From positions 1 to 44,060 of the IMG/VR virus record IMGVR_UViG_3300022857_001013: 44,060 bases of DNA. One strand, given 5' to 3'. Positions 26,932-40,865 of this stretch are shown here, piece by piece. The DNA comes from a virus. A model generated the notes under the pieces. It was given only the letters and a program-made list of their open reading frames with translations, did no database searches and was not told where the DNA came from. Both the position numbers and the translations under genes were made by a program. Numbering within the stretch: position 1 is the stretch's first letter; each line of letters starts with the position of its first letter.

Positions 26932-27690
26932 TTAAGATTCCCCTAAAAGAAACTCTTGAGTACGAATCATCGATTCTGGAGTACCCATATCTGACCAGAA
27001 ATTATTAAATGCATACCATTCAGTTTCTTTACGATTTGCATAATACTTATTTATATCTGTGATCTCTAATTCACCTCTAAGAGAAGGTTTCAGCTGATCT
27101 GCAACTGTATAAACTTGCGATGTATAATAATACATCCCAGTTACTGCCGAATCGGATATAAATGTTTTAGGTTTTTCTATTATATCAATTATCACAGAGT
27201 CAGTAAAACCATCAAATTTAGCAATACCAAATCGTTCCCATTCGTCAGTATGTGATAAAAATAAGCCAGACTTTACATCTGGAGAGTTGGAGCACATATT
27301 TATGAAATTAATTATGTTGTTGTCCTCTTCATAGAAGTTATCCCCTAAGATCACTATGAAGTCTTCAGAATTTGTAAACCCTTGGGAGAGCTTAAGAGCG
27401 CTTGCGATTCCAGGGGGTCTCGATGGATCGCTCATGTCTTGTATTTTATAAGAAAAATCTAACCCGCTCGCAAATCCATCCCCCAAATACTCGACTATTT
27501 TACCGCAGTGCTCTTGAGAGGTAATTATTAAAATGTCTGTTATACCAAGCGACTTCAATGTATTCACAGGGTATTGTATCATTGGCGTTGCTCCTGATTT
27601 AGAATATACCGGAAGTAAATGTTTATTTGTTGAGCTCGTGGCTGGGTTCATTCGAGTGCCTAAGCCCCCCGCTAGTATAATACCTTTCAT
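26932..27690 (-). CDS. RmlA-like sugar-1-phosphate nucleotidylyltransferase, 252 aa
   Basis: The start MKGIILAGGLGTRMNPAT is followed by NKHLLPVYSKSGATPMIQYP, the nucleotide-binding and sugar-phosphate loop of glucose-1-phosphate thymidylyltransferases. ILITS-type strand (ILIITSQEH), YLGDGFASGLDFSYKIQD, PPGIASALKLSQGF and VILGDNFYEED supply the remaining active-site pieces, including the metal-binding Asp of LGDN. The family reaction joins dTTP or UTP to glucose-1-phosphate. At 252 aa it lacks the C-terminal allosteric part of full RmlA (~290 aa) and resembles the short class. Its ATG overlaps the stop of the epimerase/reductase gene by 4 nt, so the two form one operon. Confidence 0.85.
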   Translation of the reverse strand: MKGIILAGGLGTRMNPATSSTNKHLLPVYSKSGATPMIQYPVNTLKSLGITDILIITSQEHCGKIVEYLGDGFASGLDFSYKIQDMSDPSRPPGIASALKLSQGFTNSEDFIVILGDNFYEEDNNIINFINMCSNSPDVKSGLFLSHTDEWERFGIAKFDGFTDSVIIDIIEKPKTFISDSAVTGMYYYTSQVYTVADQLKPSLRGELEITDINKYYANRKETEWYAFNNFWSDMGTPESMIRTQEFLLGES

Positions 27691-28547
27691 AAATTATTTG
27701 CTGCTGCAACATCAATTAGTCGTTGGTGAGCACTTGGTATAGGTCTACCTAACGCTTCAGTTATTTTATCTACTGATAATACACAATTGCTTCTTCTACA
27801 TTTCATAATATTCTGTGACAAAAGATCATCTGTTGAGTAAAATCTCTTTTTATAAATATAACTACTACAAGTATTGAGTATATCTTGTGCAGTTTTAGCG
27901 CCAGGGTTGACTATATTATATATGCCTGGTTTCGGTCTTAGGGATATAATATCATTTACGCAATCAGCCAAATCGGGTATATATGTTAGAGAATTAGGGT
28001 AATTTACGAGTTTATTATATTTGAGAATCTTACCGATATAATTTTTATCCTCTGAAATATTATTATCAAACGGCATTCGAATTCTTAATAGATAATCACG
28101 ATTTAAATAGCCTCCATATTTTAATCTCTCTTCAAATTCGGATTTACATTGCGAGTAATACGAAGCCGTGGGGTTTGATTTTCCAAAGTTATGAGGGTCA
28201 TCTTCACTATAAGCTACAATTTCATTTGTATCATTATTATATATACACCCAGACGAAATAGTTATAGTTGGGGTTGGTGAATTTTTATGGATAACTAAAT
28301 TATCCATAACATTACGAGATCTACACTCGATCTTATTATCTTCACAGCTATCTACATTCGGCCGACCAGTATAACCGTAGCAATTTACAATAATATCAGG
28401 ATTGTATTGCTCTTTAATTTGCGCTAACCCGCATAAACTAGTATAGTCAATATCCTGCCTAGATATTAAATTAGTATTATGCACCCTACTTAATATTGGT
28501 AAAATTTTAGTTCCAATATACCCTCTACCTAATATGACCACATTCAT
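27687..28547 (-). CDS. Plant-type 3,5-epimerase/4-keto-reductase (NRS/ER, UER1-like), 286 aa
   Basis: The start is chosen at the complement of 28547 (MNVVILGRGYIGTKIL); upstream in-frame Met codons give an unlikely hydrophobic extension. The SDR motif is G-R-G-Y-I-G. Diagnostic blocks are GYTGRPNVDSCEDNK (plant 'GVTGRPNVDWCE..K'), TISSGCIYNND, and SYYSQCKSEFEE with Tyr131 and Lys135. LRIRMPFDNNIS, KILKYNKLVNYPNS and GIYNIVNPG complete the match. In plants this bifunctional enzyme turns nucleotide-4-keto-6-deoxyglucose into nucleotide-L-rhamnose; related genes are known in giant viruses. With the RmlA-like partner it supplies two of the three steps; no RmlB-like 4,6-dehydratase is visible here. 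Confidence 0.85.
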   Translation of the reverse strand: MNVVILGRGYIGTKILPILSRVHNTNLISRQDIDYTSLCGLAQIKEQYNPDIIVNCYGYTGRPNVDSCEDNKIECRSRNVMDNLVIHKNSPTPTITISSGCIYNNDTNEIVAYSEDDPHNFGKSNPTASYYSQCKSEFEERLKYGGYLNRDYLLRIRMPFDNNISEDKNYIGKILKYNKLVNYPNSLTYIPDLADCVNDIISLRPKPGIYNIVNPGAKTAQDILNTCSSYIYKKRFYSTDDLLSQNIMKCRRSNCVLSVDKITEALGRPIPSAHQRLIDVAAANNL

Positions 28548-28599
28548 TACTATCATATTTAATATACATAATAAGCTTATCAACAACCTAAATACTAAT

Positions 28600-29133
28600 A
28601 TGGTTTGGTTTACGGCAGATACACATTTTTTTGAAGATATTAATACTATGAAATATTACGGTCGTCGATTTAGATCTGTAGCAGAGCAAAATGCCACAAT
28701 AATAGACAACATAAATGAGATGGTATCTGTAGAAGATACCTTATGGCATATCGGTGATGTATTTAAGGGTAGTAACGATCAAGGTTCAGAAGTATTATCC
28801 AAAATTAAGTGTAAAGACAAATATTTAGTTCGTGGGAATTATGATACTGATGAAAGATTGCCGGTTTTAACACAATATTTTAATCGCGTTTTTGACGCTG
28901 ATGCTACTATAGAGATTGACAATCAATCAATATATATGAATCATTACCCGATAAACTGCCCAGAGACAAAATTTTCTATAACTGGACATATTCATGAGAA
29001 GTGGAAAATAAAAAAAGAAATGATTAACGTCGGGGTAGACGCCAATCATTTCTTTCCGCTATCTTTTACAGATATTATGTTTTATAAGAACGCAATGGAT
29101 AACCATTACGACGATAATGTATTTACTGCTTAG
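28600..29133 (+). CDS. Calcineurin-like metallophosphoesterase with altered GNHD motif, 177 aa
   Basis: The start ATG 28600 gives MVWFTADTHFFED, placing the D-x-H metal motif (Asp7, His9) at once. Further motifs are WHIGDVF, RGNYDTD, NHYP and TGHIHEKW, matching the metallophosphoesterase set. In most relatives the third motif is GNHD; here the His is Tyr (GNYD), so the usual proton donor is changed. The fold and remaining metal ligands are intact. It is a lone plus-strand gene between two minus-strand operons and its 3' end overlaps QueF by 11 nt tail to tail. The substrate is unknown; small phage members act on cyclic or dinucleotides or on phosphoesters. Confidence 0.8.
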   Translation: MVWFTADTHFFEDINTMKYYGRRFRSVAEQNATIIDNINEMVSVEDTLWHIGDVFKGSNDQGSEVLSKIKCKDKYLVRGNYDTDERLPVLTQYFNRVFDADATIEIDNQSIYMNHYPINCPETKFSITGHIHEKWKIKKEMINVGVDANHFFPLSFTDIMFYKNAMDNHYDDNVFTA

Positions 29134-30085
29134 GCGTTTTTACATGAGGTATTTTAGGATCGCTTAACGCTACGTGCATTAAGGAATTTTTACTAACACG
29201 CTCTGGATTAATATCTATACCACCGCGTCGTGCATATAAGCATTTTACACTAAGCTCTTCAGGCTTTAATTTATCCCATATACGCTTATATATAGTTTCA
29301 CAAATTTCTTCATGAAAGTGACACTCATCACGGAACGATATAATATATTTTAGCATACTAATAGGATCGATTGTTTCGCCTTCCTTCTTAATATATATAT
29401 AAACATCTCCCCAATCAGGTTGGGATGTTACTCTACAATTAGATTTCAGTAGGGAGCTATGGTAACATACTCTTGCACATTCGGATTTAACAACTTTAAG
29501 TAGTTTAGGATCCTCTTGATATTTTGTAAAATTAACTTCGTTTAGTACATAATCTTCTTCAATAGTACTATACACTGGCAGTAGCGAGTCTTTAGCATGT
29601 GTGTAGTGCTCCTCAGATGAGCTATTTGATATACCATGGTCCCACTCCCAATATGGCGATATCTTACACTTCAATATCTGAGAATTTGTGGCGAATACAA
29701 CCTCTACTTCAGTATCTAATAATTGAGATAAGTCCTTTATGACAACTTGCTGTATATTAGCAGCAACTTCAGTAGCAGTATCCCCCAGGGGGGTCATATT
29801 GAAGGAATTTAAATATAGTTTAAAGGATTTTGATTCTACAATATACTTACTAGTACATCCGTACACCATTTTAATTACCCCAGTCACCGGAAGACCTGAG
29901 TCTGTTAAAGCTGATACTTCGTATGCATTCCATACATCAGACCCTTTAAAGGGTAAGTCATCATCCTTTATCTTTAAATGTACTCTATTGGATGATCTCT
30001 CCTCTCGCACTAATAGACTTGAATCATATTTAGATTTATATTTAGAGGTTTTACCCAGGTGTTTGCTAATTTTTGTATTATCCAT
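29123..30085 (-). CDS. queF: NADPH-dependent preQ0 reductase QueF, long (type II) form, 320 aa
   Basis: The family reduces 7-cyano-7-deazaguanine (preQ0) to 7-aminomethyl-7-deazaguanine (preQ1). VESKSFKLYLNSFN at residues 83-96 is the N-terminal-domain binding motif. LLKSNCRVTSQPDWG carries catalytic Cys217, which forms the thioimide, and Asp224, with the same 7-residue spacing as E. coli Cys190 and Asp197. ISFRDECHFHEE and YARRGGIDINPER follow and complete the core. Length is a little above the E. coli enzyme (282 aa). It is the last gene of the operon with the transglycosylase, formyltransferase and P-loop gene (1-nt gap). This supports use of preQ1 for DNA, although tRNA queuosine cannot be excluded. 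Confidence 0.92.
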   Translation of the reverse strand: MDNTKISKHLGKTSKYKSKYDSSLLVREERSSNRVHLKIKDDDLPFKGSDVWNAYEVSALTDSGLPVTGVIKMVYGCTSKYIVESKSFKLYLNSFNMTPLGDTATEVAANIQQVVIKDLSQLLDTEVEVVFATNSQILKCKISPYWEWDHGISNSSSEEHYTHAKDSLLPVYSTIEEDYVLNEVNFTKYQEDPKLLKVVKSECARVCYHSSLLKSNCRVTSQPDWGDVYIYIKKEGETIDPISMLKYIISFRDECHFHEEICETIYKRIWDKLKPEELSVKCLYARRGGIDINPERVSKNSLMHVALSDPKIPHVKTPKQ

Positions 30086-30086
30086 T

Positions 30087-30638
30087 TTAAAAATTTATTA
30101 AAGTCTTCCTAATTTTTTCCATTCTCTCATTTACAGTTCCAGATAATATAGTATAAGATACTTTACCCTCTAGCCTCTCGAGTCTCTTCTCAAATATTTC
30201 AATTATATCTTCCCGAAATGTTTCATTTACGCTTCTCACACCATCGTCTTCCATAGTAATATCTGCATCAGGGTATGTATAAAATATATGATCTATTTTT
30301 GTAATTAACTCTTCAAATACATTCTCAGCATAATCTAATACCCAACCGTCTACACTTCCCTGATCATACAGCCACTGCGTATAGACTACCCCATCTAAGA
30401 TGCATCTATCCATAACAGTACTATATTTTGCCTCTAAGTAATTTTGAAGATGTTGATGGATGATACATAATTGAGTAATATTATCACCACTCTCATTTAT
30501 GTTTAAATTATGCTTCCGCTTTACTTGCCTAGTTACTTCTAACACAAAGTCGAAATTTTCAAAAGAGCGATCATTGCGGCAAAGATTCAGTAATGTTGTT
30601 TTGCCTGTATTCTGAGCACCTGTAAATGATATTATCAT
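30087..30638 (-). CDS. P-loop kinase/AAA_28-like NTPase in the deazaguanine operon, 183 aa
   Basis: The Walker A motif GAQNTGKTTL lies at residues 7-16, preceded by MIISFT. VMDRCILDGVVYTQWLYD resembles the Asp-Arg core of NadR/AAA_28-type and thymidylate-kinase-like enzymes. The C-terminus, ERMEKIRKTL, is a short helix. The size and single-domain layout suit a small-molecule kinase. It overlaps the formyltransferase gene by 4 nt and is 1 nt from queF, so it is co-translated with the 7-deazaguanine enzymes. Such NTPases are common in phages near nucleotide and cofactor genes. A role in base or nucleotide supply is plausible, but no substrate can be read from the sequence. Confidence 0.75.
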   Translation of the reverse strand: MIISFTGAQNTGKTTLLNLCRNDRSFENFDFVLEVTRQVKRKHNLNINESGDNITQLCIIHQHLQNYLEAKYSTVMDRCILDGVVYTQWLYDQGSVDGWVLDYAENVFEELITKIDHIFYTYPDADITMEDDGVRSVNETFREDIIEIFEKRLERLEGKVSYTILSGTVNERMEKIRKTLINF

Positions 30639-31207
30639 ACTATTAGTTTAAGCTTTAATCTTAAAAAATCAACCCATAGATTTAAGGAGTGGGCCCTTAT
30701 TTCTTTATTTAACCCCTCTATATTAATAAAAGATGTTTCTGATAGATTAAACGATGATTCACTTATTATCTTCCCTTCATCTACAGCGGGTACTACTTCA
30801 TGTATAACAGAGCCAGCCTCGGTATAATTATCTATATTAACCCATATTCTCTCAACTGGATCTTTACCTCGTAGTTCCGGATATTGTGAAATAAGACCCG
30901 GATGACCGTTATATATATTATAATTACTACAAATCTCAGGTGGTATAATTTTTAACCATCCATTTAAAGTAACTATACACTTACTACCGCAATCTTTTAA
31001 AATTTCCTTATATGTATCTATTGTAACATTAGGACCAGTCATAATACATCGATTTTTATCTGAGTGTTCATACTCAGATAAAAGTTTCGGTGATATATTT
31101 GATATGGTATTATTAGAAACAATAACGTCTGGAAATCTTCCGATGCGTCTAGATATATCCAATATCTCTGAACCAGTTTGACTAAAAAATGCTATCCAAT
31201 ACTTCAT
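30635..31207 (-). CDS. dpdN: Formyltransferase, candidate dPreQ1 formyltransferase DpdN, 190 aa
   Basis: Belongs to the formyl-tetrahydrofolate-dependent formyltransferase fold (PurN, Fmt). YNGHPGLISQYPELRGKDP carries Asn100 and His102, equivalent to the PurN catalytic Asn and His in 'N.HPSLLP.YPG'. EAGSVIHEVVPAVDEGKIIS supplies the Asp (Asp143) of 'D.G.I'. The N-terminus lacks the phosphate-binding 'SG.GSN' loop of true PurN (here FSQTGSE), which argues against glycinamide ribotide as substrate. It lies between the DpdA-like gene (8-nt gap) and the P-loop gene (4-nt overlap), with queF following. Published work proposed a formyltransferase, DpdN, that formylates preQ1 in phage DNA. Family is clear, substrate inferred. 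Confidence 0.75.
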   Translation of the reverse strand: MKYWIAFFSQTGSEILDISRRIGRFPDVIVSNNTISNISPKLLSEYEHSDKNRCIMTGPNVTIDTYKEILKDCGSKCIVTLNGWLKIIPPEICSNYNIYNGHPGLISQYPELRGKDPVERIWVNIDNYTEAGSVIHEVVPAVDEGKIISESSFNLSETSFINIEGLNKEIRAHSLNLWVDFLRLKLKLIV

Positions 31208-31215
31208 AAGTTATA

Positions 31216-32019
31216 TTAAGGGTTTAGTATATGATTAAATTTCCGCATATTGTATTCTATTAAATCCAGTGTATCCTTAGACGGTGTATCCCCATCAATG
31301 AAATCCTCATTATCAGCTAAATGTACTTCTTCTGTGAGACCTAAATTACCTGCATATTTTAGCGATTTAAGTCCAGCTATAACAGGGTTGCTCGTATCTA
31401 CAGACCTTATATTATATATATTATTATTTTTGTAGTAACTAAACTCTCTAGCAAGAGAGCAACCTAAGAGATGGTGAGGCTTATCCCAGTTCCAAATTCC
31501 AGCTGATATGAGGGTTTCAATTAACCTAATTCTACCACTTACTCTCATATCTGCTACAGACTTACCATGGCCAGTATATTCAAAATATTTCATATCAAAT
31601 GATATGGCAATATAATCGGCATTTTCGCTCATATGCTTATAACAGTTTACAATTTCTTGGTATGTTGTCCCTTGTACCGTTCCAATCTGTAGACCTGCTA
31701 CATTTTTAAAATTAGCGTTCCAACGCTGAAAATTAAATATGGTCTCTTCCGAGTCTTCTAATACATCTGGAACTATATAATATGTCGGTTCTAGTTTATC
31801 AATCCATTTTGAATATTGCTTAGGGTCAAATGATTTTTTGAGCTCATATATACTATTATCTAAGATTACCTCACGATCATTTAATAAAGCTACCTTAAAA
31901 AAATTATAATATCTATCGTATCTGTCAAAATGATGTACCAGCGCATAATCATAATCTGTGTGTTGTTGAACCATCCCCATTAAATTTATAGGGGCCTCAT
32001 GAGCTTTCATTATATTCAT
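31216..32019 (-). CDS. dpdA: DpdA-like DNA/tRNA-guanine transglycosylase, 267 aa
   Basis: TGT-superfamily pattern in a short protein. VILDNSIYEL (Asp54) is followed by YIVPDVLED (Asp85) and GLQIGTVQG ending at 117. Then HLLGCSLAREFSYY leads to RSVDTSNPV with Asp208, placed like the catalytic Asp of TGT enzymes. The family swaps a guanine for a 7-deazaguanine; DpdA members act on DNA. There is no zinc site of the tRNA TGT type (no C-x-C-x2-C cluster), favouring a DpdA-like protein over a tRNA enzyme. It heads the operon with the formyltransferase, P-loop and QueF genes. Similarity is by motif and context, so the exact subfamily is open. Confidence 0.72.
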   Translation of the reverse strand: MNIMKAHEAPINLMGMVQQHTDYDYALVHHFDRYDRYYNFFKVALLNDREVILDNSIYELKKSFDPKQYSKWIDKLEPTYYIVPDVLEDSEETIFNFQRWNANFKNVAGLQIGTVQGTTYQEIVNCYKHMSENADYIAISFDMKYFEYTGHGKSVADMRVSGRIRLIETLISAGIWNWDKPHHLLGCSLAREFSYYKNNNIYNIRSVDTSNPVIAGLKSLKYAGNLGLTEEVHLADNEDFIDGDTPSKDTLDLIEYNMRKFNHILNP

Positions 32020-36021: not shown

Positions 36022-37023
36022 TTAGAAATCGTCATCTAGAGCTCCCGCTGACTGATAGTCAATTACCCGAGTCTCAAAGAAGTTTTTTGCTTTAATAAGA
36101 TCTTGTACCTCTGATAAGAAGTCGAAGGGGTTTGTATCATTAGGGAATCTATAATCTAGACCGATACCTTCAAGCCTTCTATTACCTATATATTGCATAT
36201 ATTTAACAAACATATCTGAATTAAGCCCTAACACACCACGAGGTAATACATCCTTTGCATACGCAATCTCTAAATCGACAGCTGTCTTTAAATACCCAAC
36301 CAACTCATCCTGAAAGTCTTTAGTCCATATTTCCGGATTTTGCTTTATTATAGTTCTTATAAGTTGGGAGCCAAATTGAATATGTAGAGATTCATCTCTG
36401 AGTGTATATTCAATTTGCTCTCCAATCCCTGGTAGTTTAGATTTTAATGCTAATAACATTGCAAACCCAGAGAAGAAGAAAGTTCCCTCACATACAATCC
36501 AGAACAGAAAGCAGGACTTTAAGAGAGCCTTAACTCCTTCAGGTGTAGATGAATCAATATCGTTGATATTGACATCTCTTGTAACTTCCATTAAAAAGTT
36601 ATCTTTAGCAGCAATAGACGGTATATTTTCATATGCTTCGTATACATCTTCAGCTTTAAGATCTGTAATAGAGTCGCACATATATACAATAGTATCGTTA
36701 TGCAAACACTCCTCCCAAATCTGTCTAGCCATATATTGTCTACATTCTGGGTCAGTTATATATTTAAATAGCGTAACTAAATTATTACCTACTAAAGATT
36801 CAGATCCAGCAAAAAAACCGAGGCATCGACGCACAACCAATTTTTCATCAGCTGTCAACACACCATTACTCCAGTTTTGTATATCTCTTGTCATCCCTAT
36901 ATCCTCAGGATTCCAATTATTATTTTTTCCTCTCTTATACAGATCCCATGCCCATTTATTAACATGGGGTAGTATCTGATTTACCCCCTCTTGTACTTCT
37001 CCAAATATTTTCCCTGTTTTCAT
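36022..37023 (-). CDS. nrdB: Ribonucleotide reductase small subunit NrdB, radical Tyr replaced by Ile, 333 aa
   Basis: Class I R2. Metal ligands by position are Glu75 (SESLVGNN), Glu105 and His108 (WEECLHND), Glu179 (VCEGTFFF), and Glu211 with His214 (RDESLHIQFG). The first ligand is Glu rather than Asp, and the block after His108 reads NDTIVYMCDS. That is the layout of the Chlamydia class Ic R2 ('EEAVHTHTFLYICES'), which uses a Mn/Fe centre and has Phe instead of the radical Tyr. Here that position is Ile112. The C-terminal tail ends DYQSAGALDDDF, suited to binding NrdA. It is 18 nt downstream of nrdA and probably in the same operon. Confidence 0.93.
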   Translation of the reverse strand: MKTGKIFGEVQEGVNQILPHVNKWAWDLYKRGKNNNWNPEDIGMTRDIQNWSNGVLTADEKLVVRRCLGFFAGSESLVGNNLVTLFKYITDPECRQYMARQIWEECLHNDTIVYMCDSITDLKAEDVYEAYENIPSIAAKDNFLMEVTRDVNINDIDSSTPEGVKALLKSCFLFWIVCEGTFFFSGFAMLLALKSKLPGIGEQIEYTLRDESLHIQFGSQLIRTIIKQNPEIWTKDFQDELVGYLKTAVDLEIAYAKDVLPRGVLGLNSDMFVKYMQYIGNRRLEGIGLDYRFPNDTNPFDFLSEVQDLIKAKNFFETRVIDYQSAGALDDDF

Positions 37024-37041: not shown

Positions 37042-39516
37042 TTATTGACAGCTTTCACATGTAGGGTCATCGATTCTGCAGACCATAGCGCTCATATCTT
37101 CTGTTGTAGTCGCTTCTAATGCACTCTGATTAATTGAAGCCTTTTCTACCTGAGATGCACTTTTATTTCTTAGGTAGTATGTAGTTTTAAGACCTATATT
37201 CCAGGCGTGCATATATATGTCGTTTAAATGCTTCATACTCGTCTTATTATTAAATATATTTACGGACATCCCCATATCAATCCATTTACCCCTTACTGCA
37301 GCTGCAGTAAGCAATGACATTTGATCCACATTAAATGCATCTCTGTATTTTAAAGCAACATCTGAAGGTATCTCAGGTATTTTAGACAGATCACCATCAC
37401 ATCCCTTTATTCTACTAACCATATCATGGCTCCATAAACCTAAGGCTTTCATATCTGCAACAAACCAATCATTAATTACAGTAAAATCTCCACCTAATAC
37501 ACTACGAGCAAACAGCACATTAAAATAAGGCTCAGTACAAGATGAGCATCCAGCAATTTGAGAAATAGTCGCAGTTGGGGCAATAGCCATAGTATTTGAA
37601 TTTCTCATACCGTAATTCTTAACATGGGATCTAACTATTGACCAATCTAATAGCTTACTCTCTCCCCTATATAGAGCTTCGTTCTGGCCTCCCTCTCTCT
37701 GTTTTAGTAAATCTAAATGAGTATCAATTGGGAATTTATTCTGATCCCACAGCGATCCTTTATAGGTGCTATATTTCCCTCTTTCTTTTGCAAGCTTGCT
37801 ACTATTAAGTATAGTGTGATAAGATATAAATTCATATAGGTTGTCGCTATATTCTATAGCCTCCTGAGAGTCATATAGAACATCTAAAGCAATAAATAAA
37901 TCGTGCCACCCCATAGTTCCCATACCTACCGGTCTATGTCTAGTATTGGAATTTTTTGCCTCTTGCGTAGGGTAGAAATTAATATCAATGACATTATCCA
38001 GCATTCTCATACCAGTGGCAATAGTACTAGCAATCTTATTATAATTAATTGAATATTTACCATCTAAATTTTTAATGATATGCTCTTTAAGATTAATTGA
38101 ACCTAAATTACATACTGCAGTTTCCCCATATTCATCAATTTCTCGATTATTATTTTCTTTATATTTGGTAGCTTTGCTATGTAATAGAATTTCAGTGCAA
38201 AGATTAGAGCTGTTTACTGTACCTTCATGTTGGTTTGAGTATCTTATATTACTAGGATCTTTAAAAGTAATCCATGGGTGGCCAGTCTCGAATATCATTC
38301 CTAGCATTTTTTTCCAAAGATCTTTTGCCTGTACCTCTTTAAATAATCGCAGAGTTCCAGCCTTACCTAATATTACATATTCCCAATATTTATTTTCAAA
38401 CTCCTCACCAAAAAGACCATGAAGCTCAGGAGTTTCGTCAGGAGAAAACAAATACCAAGGGCCATCTTTTTTTACTTGATTTATAAATAAATCTGGGATC
38501 CAATTTGCAGTATTCATGTCATGTGTTCGTCTCCGCTCGTCACCTACATTTTTCTTTAGAGCTAAAAAGTCTTCAATGTCAAAGTGCCATGTTTCGAGAT
38601 ATCCACATCCTGCGCCCTTACGTTTACCTCCTTGGTTAATGGCTACGAGCATATCATTATATAGTTTCCAAAAATACACTGCACCTTGAGTATTACCATT
38701 AGTCCCCTTTATATATGCATTACTTCCTCTGAATGGTGTTAGGTCCATACCTAAACCTCCCGCAAATTTTGATTTCTGTGCCTCTTGATGCAGACCATCA
38801 AATATACCAAATACTGAATCCTCAAATGTATTTAAAAAGCATGAGCTTAATTGATTTCGAGTAGATCCTGAGTAAAATAACGTTGGCGTCGAACTCATAT
38901 ACGAAAACGTAGATAATAAATTATAAAATTCAATAGCTCTTTTTGTTTTATTATCTTCTTTAATAGCTAACCCCATTGCTACTCGCATTACCCAAGCTTG
39001 AGGAGTCTCTACTACTTTACCATCTATTCTAAATAAATATCTCTCAGCTACTGCTGCAAGACCCTCAAATTGAAAATTGAGATCTCTGTCAGGTATTAAG
39101 GCCGCAGAAATTTCATCCATATCGAATTCAGTAAGGAGCTCTGGATTTACAATTTCTTCATCAATTAGAGACTTTAAATTGTCTATAAAGCATTTACTAT
39201 ATTGCTCTTCAAACGCCTTATCGTTAGTATTACTCTTAAAACAAGTTTTATATATGGTAAACAATAAAAGACGAGCAGCAACATATTTATATTGTGGGTC
39301 TTCTTCAACTAAAGCCCTTGCAGACTTTATCAGTGACTCATCTATCTCTTGAGTAGTAACACCATCATATAACTTAACTTCTGCATTATATATAACTTGA
39401 CGATGGTCTACATCATCTAGCCCCTTACAAGCCCTTTTGACAGTTTGAGTAATTTTCCTTGCATCAAAATTAACGGATTTACCGCTTCGCTTTATAACAG
39501 TTATAGTATTGTTCAT
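37042..39516 (-). CDS. nrdA: Ribonucleotide reductase large subunit NrdA, 824 aa
   Basis: Class I R1, reducing ribonucleoside diphosphates with NrdB. Residues 1-~90 form an ATP-cone (VIKRSGKSVNFDARKI, then ARLLLFTIYK). Active-site Cys226 is in SSCFLNTF and Cys469 in AVCNLGSINL. Cys440, in the finger loop VNSSNLCTEI, is the thiyl-radical site and is flanked by Asn438 and Glu442. KTTYYLRNK near the C-terminus supplies the Tyr pair of the radical path. The protein ends DDPTCESCQ, a C-x-x-C redox tail for thioredoxin or glutaredoxin. All catalytic residues seem present. A full ATP-cone suggests dATP feedback is retained. Confidence 0.95.
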   Translation of the reverse strand: MNNTITVIKRSGKSVNFDARKITQTVKRACKGLDDVDHRQVIYNAEVKLYDGVTTQEIDESLIKSARALVEEDPQYKYVAARLLLFTIYKTCFKSNTNDKAFEEQYSKCFIDNLKSLIDEEIVNPELLTEFDMDEISAALIPDRDLNFQFEGLAAVAERYLFRIDGKVVETPQAWVMRVAMGLAIKEDNKTKRAIEFYNLLSTFSYMSSTPTLFYSGSTRNQLSSCFLNTFEDSVFGIFDGLHQEAQKSKFAGGLGMDLTPFRGSNAYIKGTNGNTQGAVYFWKLYNDMLVAINQGGKRKGAGCGYLETWHFDIEDFLALKKNVGDERRRTHDMNTANWIPDLFINQVKKDGPWYLFSPDETPELHGLFGEEFENKYWEYVILGKAGTLRLFKEVQAKDLWKKMLGMIFETGHPWITFKDPSNIRYSNQHEGTVNSSNLCTEILLHSKATKYKENNNREIDEYGETAVCNLGSINLKEHIIKNLDGKYSINYNKIASTIATGMRMLDNVIDINFYPTQEAKNSNTRHRPVGMGTMGWHDLFIALDVLYDSQEAIEYSDNLYEFISYHTILNSSKLAKERGKYSTYKGSLWDQNKFPIDTHLDLLKQREGGQNEALYRGESKLLDWSIVRSHVKNYGMRNSNTMAIAPTATISQIAGCSSCTEPYFNVLFARSVLGGDFTVINDWFVADMKALGLWSHDMVSRIKGCDGDLSKIPEIPSDVALKYRDAFNVDQMSLLTAAAVRGKWIDMGMSVNIFNNKTSMKHLNDIYMHAWNIGLKTTYYLRNKSASQVEKASINQSALEATTTEDMSAMVCRIDDPTCESCQ

Positions 39517-40393: not shown

Positions 40394-40825
40394 TTAATAC
40401 ATCTCCCAAGGATAGACTATCCACTCGTCTTTTTTTACAGTTTTAGCTGTGAAATCGGGAGTAAATATTGCTGAAGGTCTGTAGTGGAGGCTAGCGAATA
40501 ATAGTATTGAACCATCTCCCTTATATTTCTGATAAATGCCCCCCATAGTTTCTCCAGAATCACATATATCGTCTATGTATAATGAATTACCTCTTTCTGA
40601 ATTTCCATAAATACTTAAATCCCCACGGGTCTCCCCATCATACGATTTAGCTGTTATTAAATATAGAGGTAATTTTAAAATTCTAGAAATTAAGCTGGCG
40701 GGGATTACACCACCTCTCTGTATGCCCACTACCTGATCAATCTCTGTATCGGATCGATTCACCTTAGCTGCAATATATGCGCAATATTCCTCGACCTCTC
40801 CCCAACTAATATTTAACTTTTTCAT
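40394..40825 (-). CDS. Phosphoribosyltransferase-like protein, 143 aa
   Basis: The start is at the complement of 40825 (MKKLNISWGEVEEYC); the longer reading from 40849 would run through a terminator hairpin. VVGIQRGGVIPASLIS is the first phosphoribosyltransferase strand-loop. SLYIDDICDSGETMGG is the PRPP-binding motif (family 'vlvvDDi.dTG.T'), with two adjacent Asp residues. The final YPWEMY is seen in xanthine/hypoxanthine-type relatives ('v.FPWE'). The family moves a purine base to PRPP. In a phage making 7-deazaguanine DNA this could recycle guanine released by base exchange, but that is inference. It may also simply salvage host purines. Confidence 0.82.
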   Translation of the reverse strand: MKKLNISWGEVEEYCAYIAAKVNRSDTEIDQVVGIQRGGVIPASLISRILKLPLYLITAKSYDGETRGDLSIYGNSERGNSLYIDDICDSGETMGGIYQKYKGDGSILLFASLHYRPSAIFTPDFTAKTVKKDEWIVYPWEMY

Positions 40826-40833
40826 ATGGCTAT

Positions 40834-40865
40834 AAAAAAGCGGGACCATCGATCCCGCTCTTTTT
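40834..40865. terminator. Bidirectional terminator upstream of the PRTase gene
   Basis: A perfect 7-bp stem, AGCGGGA (40839-40845) and TCCCGCT (40853-40859), has A's on the left and TTTTT on the right, so it can stop transcripts on either strand. It lies between the lipoprotein gene (stop at 40920) and the PRTase start (40825). Confidence 0.82.

Follow-up and report, generated by a model that had tools for sequence, protein, structure and literature searches.

A probable DpdA3-type 7-deazaguanine DNA-hypermodification operon with a closely linked kinase gene in a virus record

The window analysed here, the whole 44,060-base virus record IMGVR_UViG_3300022857_001013, which is probably a fragment, carries a four-gene operon on its minus strand (32019→29123) for a DpdA3-type guanine transglycosylase, a formyltransferase, a kinase-like P-loop protein and QueF. 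I read it as an operon of the DpdA3 type for 7-deazaguanine hypermodification of DNA, carried by a tailed phage that is a relative of the immuto-like phages, following the route to formyl-preQ1 (fdPreQ1), and put the probability of this reading at roughly 0.7. The strong linkage of the kinase to DpdA3, together with an apparent natural swap of the two genes in a Campylobacter phage, favours, without proving, a route in which guanine is exchanged in nucleotides and the polymerase incorporates these afterwards.

Results

All four open reading frames of the operon were confirmed at the positions first given for them, and the original prediction of four packed minus-strand genes that include QueF holds with its spacing, which is, in order, 8 nt, an overlap of 4 nt (-4) and 1 nt (Table 1). 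The QueE gene expected at 42.7 kb is present as well. Genes for an RmlA-like nucleotidyltransferase and an RmlD-like reductase adjoin the operon (window 26932-28586, minus strand), and a metallophosphoesterase gene on the plus strand (28534-29133) is convergent with the QueF gene and overlaps its end.

Table 1. Genes of the window that bear on the proposed modification pathway
Feature	Position	Strand	Evidence
DpdA3-type guanine transglycosylase, 267 aa	31216..32019	-	AF2, Foldseek, phrog_19058, identity to immuto/CP220
DpdN-like PurN-fold formyltransferase, 190 aa	30635..31207	-	PF00551; invariant catalytic residues
(Deoxy)nucleoside/nucleotide kinase-like P-loop protein, 183 aa	30087..30638	-	PF13521, phrog_2107, AF2, Foldseek
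QueF, preQ0 to preQ1 nitrile reductase, 320 aa	29123..30085	-	TIGR03138; catalytic residues
QueE, 7-carboxy-7-deazaguanine synthase, 277 aa	42674..43507	-	phrog_2076 E 5e-37
Xanthine/guanine phosphoribosyltransferase-like protein	40394..40849	-	PF00156 E 2e-15
Ribonucleotide reductase large subunit (context: dNTP supply)	37042..39516	-	PF02867 E 1.5e-172
Ribonucleotide reductase small subunit (context: dNTP supply)	36022..37023	-	PF00268 E 3.5e-72

The transglycosylase matches no Pfam and no NCBIfam family and falls in phrog_19058. Its AlphaFold2 model, built on a 44-row alignment, has a pLDDT of 93.8 and a pTM of 0.91, and in a Foldseek search of the PDB the first seven matches are six TGT structures followed by DpdA 7ui4 (E 4e-7 to 4e-6), a ranking that places the modelled protein in the TGT superfamily, with a predicted TGT-type TIM barrel. 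The original prediction of a DpdA-like transglycosylase, which had named a place outside this superfamily as its counter-case, is thereby upheld, as Foldseek puts the protein inside. It is 40% identical to the DpdA of Flavobacterium phage vB_FspM_immuto_2-6A, and aligns over 87% of its length with the enzyme of Campylobacter phage CP220 (39% identity, E 1e-37), a close relationship that puts it in the subfamily called DpdA3. The catalytic aspartates of the LD(S/N) and SVD(S/T)S motifs, D54 and D208, are invariant in 11 diverse sequences and collinear with D72 and D215 of DpdA1, at a weak profile-profile score, and a DpdA3 profile found no match in a sequence search of the PDB. Net charge was rejected as a sign of DNA binding, as DpdA3 is just somewhat more acidic than DpdA1 and DpdA2, a weak difference, and the missing TGT zinc site was rejected as a mark of DpdA3, as DpdA1 and DpdA2 are also without CxCxxC. 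One contig has a second, tandem DpdA3 copy (L163:5806-6675) with LNCS in place of LDNS and hence without the first catalytic Asp, perhaps a non-catalytic partner; in another, a queuosine-precursor transporter gene (TIGR00697, L029:4848-5474) lies shortly upstream of DpdA3.

The formyltransferase passes the cut-off of PF00551 (29.3 against 26.1 bits) and misses the PurN equivalog TIGR00639 (30.3 bits, cut-off 150.1). All 35 rows of an alignment have Asn100, His102 and Asp143, which bears out the expected PurN-fold enzyme with these residues. It had further been described as lacking the PurN phosphate loop, which is right only in part: the loop does align ('SGNGSN' in PurN, 'SQTGSE' here), and it is the PurN Asn that is replaced, by a Glu (Glu14) invariant in the 35 rows. 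Judged by its position and the changed loop, the protein is probably a DpdN with preQ1 as its substrate, though another substrate is possible. At the usual DpdN place, three contigs carry an FkbH-domain and GNAT protein (TIGR01686, over cut-off; L074:3327-5221, L080:6918-8812 and L090), accompanied by a methylmalonyl-CoA-epimerase-like VOC protein. FkbH is absent from all other DpdA3 contigs searched, and an acyl carrier protein was not found on these three short contigs; the FkbH-type gene possibly provides another acyl (glyceryl?) decoration of preQ1.

QueF matches TIGR03138 with an E of 4e-73 and 246 bits, formally below the equivalog cut-off of 293, and both T-fold domains, PF14819 and PF14489, above cut-off; the catalytic Cys217 and Asp224, noted already in the original prediction, and the His-Glu pair are all present, which confirms the assignment. 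The cluster Cys motif of QueE is split: between its second and third Cys the protein has about 30 inserted residues. FolE, QueC and QueD were searched for and not found within the 44-kb window; all three occur in every large relative contig searched (126-191 kb). The phosphoribosyltransferase-like protein (XGPRT-like) has XPRT as its best NCBIfam match, below the cut-off of that family, homologues of its gene lie in the FolE-DpdA operon of relatives, and a role in the salvage of released guanine is possible.

The third gene of the operon had been called a P-loop NTPase, which is correct and underreads it: Foldseek points to a nucleoside/nucleotide-kinase-like protein. The protein matches PF13521 and phrog_2107, and the best Foldseek matches of its AlphaFold2 model (pLDDT 92.1) are deoxyadenosine kinase, thymidylate kinase, the NadR kinase domain and dNK. 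Since the fold resembles deoxyadenosine kinase and NadR kinase about as closely, I do not rely on a thymidylate kinase annotation.

IMG/VR scans yielded relatives when alignments were used as queries, and no matches with single proteins or with a Bacillus-type DpdA3. The first scan, with the window, immuto and CP220 proteins, gave 194 relatives, from which 80 loci were kept, and the second, with formyltransferase-poor relatives, gave at least 546, with at least 11 contigs common to both; the DpdA3 family is thus large. The usual gene order in the first scan is PRT-FolE-PRA-PH-DpdA3-formyltransferase-kinase-QueF-polA, and the order DpdA-formyltransferase-kinase-QueF recurs in dozens of viral contigs, so it is not due to chance. 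In the 73 loci of the first scan that are uncut by a contig end, the kinase is always found (73/73), the formyltransferase in 65 and QueF in 63; among the matches listed in the second scan, the complete loci have the kinase in 68 of 76 cases and the formyltransferase in 36 of 76. The kinase adjoins the DpdA3-type gene also in loci without formyltransferase or without QueF. Initially I read the kinase as always present, until the second scan weakened this with eight exceptions: among the matches listed, four contigs carry a kinase several kb away, one exception belongs to a bacterial MAG, and the last three, on the short contigs L159, L163 and L194, have no kinase on the contig. Owing to these last three loci, the DpdA3-kinase link is strong, not absolute.

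In distant phages the partner kinase belongs to other families, being of the phrog_761 type in Youna2, BSTP12 and BSP7, a deoxynucleotide monophosphate kinase in Aeromonas phage Ahp1 and of the AAA_18 type in MA9V-3; the four partner families are mutually undetectable with the profiles used here, and a kinase tree gives no clean split between kinases linked to DpdA3 and those that are not. As a control, none of 19 DpdA1/DpdA2 loci has such a kinase closer than 4 kb; a deoxynucleotide kinase in pf16 comes nearest, at 5.8 kb. These loci are flanked by FolE and Que genes and frequently by ParB-like proteins or sliding clamps. Counted by my own judgement as distinct arrangements, DpdA3 has the kinase in 10 and lacks it in 3, against 0 of about 10 in the control, for a rough p of about 2.5e-4 calculated by hand on loci that are not phylogenetically independent. 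Among other nucleotide-level genes, which are common in phages, a GMP-reductase-like gene stands between DpdN and the kinase in two contigs (L012:7360-8316 and L013:7285-8340, the latter assigned by position and size), and PRA-PH-type genes occur in many of the operons.

Campylobacter phage CC_R7 is placed in Firehammervirus, as is CP220 (PMC12398825). The CP220-type DpdA3-kinase pair near the tail-tube gene is absent from CC_R7, which has a diverged pair (L121:5385-6728) at 103-105 kb, flanked by QueC and DNA polymerase, with both its DpdA3 and its kinase about 27% identical to those of CP220. Judging from these sequences, DpdA3 and kinase seem to have been replaced together.

Discussion

The families, the fold, the conserved catalytic residues and the conserved linkage suggest the following substrates, order of steps and end product. 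QueE in the window, working with FolE, QueD and QueC that the host or another part of the phage would contribute, would supply preQ0, which QueF would reduce to preQ1; DpdA3 would swap guanine for a 7-deazaguanine, and DpdN would formylate the aminomethyl group with 10-formyl-THF, so that fdPreQ1 could stand in for much or all of the dG. The original prediction of fdPreQ1 as the end product is thus supported as likely. Its further claim, that the base is made after replication and exchange, is not supported as to this order, as the near-constant neighbouring kinase argues for a step at the nucleotide level. The kinase would be a core partner of DpdA3, and I lean slightly to a route in which DpdA3 would act on a dG nucleoside or nucleotide, the kinase would phosphorylate what results towards the triphosphate, and the polymerase of the phage would incorporate it. 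If the substrate of DpdA3 is a monomer, a kinase step is readily understood. Since the characterised enzymes of the TGT superfamily act on polynucleotides, I hold it at close to even odds that DpdA3-type enzymes are transglycosylases working on dG(MP), with a dedicated kinase and fully substituted DNA as the outcome. The three contigs without a kinase and the lack of FolE, QueD and QueC in the window count against the proposed pathway as a whole.

Alternatively, DpdA3 may exchange guanine in DNA after replication, with DpdN formylating preQ1 there and the kinase just aiding dNTP supply, and this has a real chance of being correct, with the odds somewhat against it. Known TGT and DpdA enzymes work on nucleic acid, 7ui4 being a DNA preQ0 insertase, DpdA1 and DpdA3 share collinear motifs, and polA lies near DpdA3 in many loci. 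However, it leaves unexplained why kinases of four unrelated-looking families stand by DpdA3 and none by the 19 DpdA1/DpdA2 genes, as well as the paired swap in CC_R7. It is unlikely that the kinase serves instead to recycle guanine, which DpdA3 would free from DNA in bulk, the phosphoribosyltransferase would turn into GMP and the kinase would raise towards GTP, the substrate of FolE for making new 7-deazaguanine. The XGPRT-like gene, in the window and also beside FolE in immuto-type operons, fits this, but many kinase-bearing loci have no phosphoribosyltransferase near DpdA3, the kinase fold fits deoxynucleoside and TMP kinases, and the partner in Ahp1 is a deoxynucleotide monophosphate kinase. 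It is quite improbable that the formyltransferase has some other metabolite of phage or host as its substrate, with plain dPreQ1 in the DNA: DpdA3-kinase-QueF loci without it are common, so the core works on its own, yet the gene sits tightly between DpdA3 and kinase with an invariant active site, and in three contigs the FkbH-type gene replaces it at this very place.

The linkage to the kinase makes testable how some phages replace every dG. Monomer-level action of DpdA3, if true, would explain such complete replacement and offer a route to modified dGTP analogues, and these would be, to my knowledge, the first TGT-superfamily enzymes known to act on monomers. It would also parallel the diaminopurine (Z) genome pathway, in which the modified nucleotide is made before replication.

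Comparison with known systems

The closest known system is that of phage immuto 2-6A, which has the identical four-gene order, annotated as DNA guanine transglycosylase, formyltransferase, thymidylate kinase and QueF, with proteins 35-43% identical to those of the window. Near its operon lie FolE, QueD, QueE, QueC, a phosphoribosyltransferase and a PRA-PH-type protein, whereas in the window QueE and the phosphoribosyltransferase alone were found, both outside the operon. Cui et al. reportedly described fdPreQ1 in 2023 (NAR) and are said to have named DpdN and DpdA3 and to have stated that 7-deazaguanine insertion is post-replicative. With the gene order of immuto 2-6A already annotated and the modification published earlier, the operon is of a known kind and the novelty first claimed for it was overstated; it is another phage in an already published class.

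PurN (GAR transformylase) shares its fold and its Asn/His/Asp catalytic residues with the formyltransferase, which differs in the invariant Glu at the phosphate-loop Asn and in scoring far under the PurN equivalog cut-off. The DpdA1/DpdA2 systems (9g, BcepGomr, VH7D) are alike in their TGT-superfamily enzyme and FolE-QueD-QueE-QueC precursor pathway, and DpdA1 in its collinear catalytic motifs; they differ from DpdA3 in that the enzyme is mostly longer, the neighbours are often ParB-like proteins or clamps, and no kinase lies nearby. The Firehammervirus CP220 resembles the window in its DpdA3 (39% identical) and adjoining kinase (31% identical), but has neither formyltransferase nor QueF beside this pair and bears a different modification. 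Campylobacter phages are reported to be highly modified by dADG, and for them a route through a modified dGTP has been proposed (PMC6884629).
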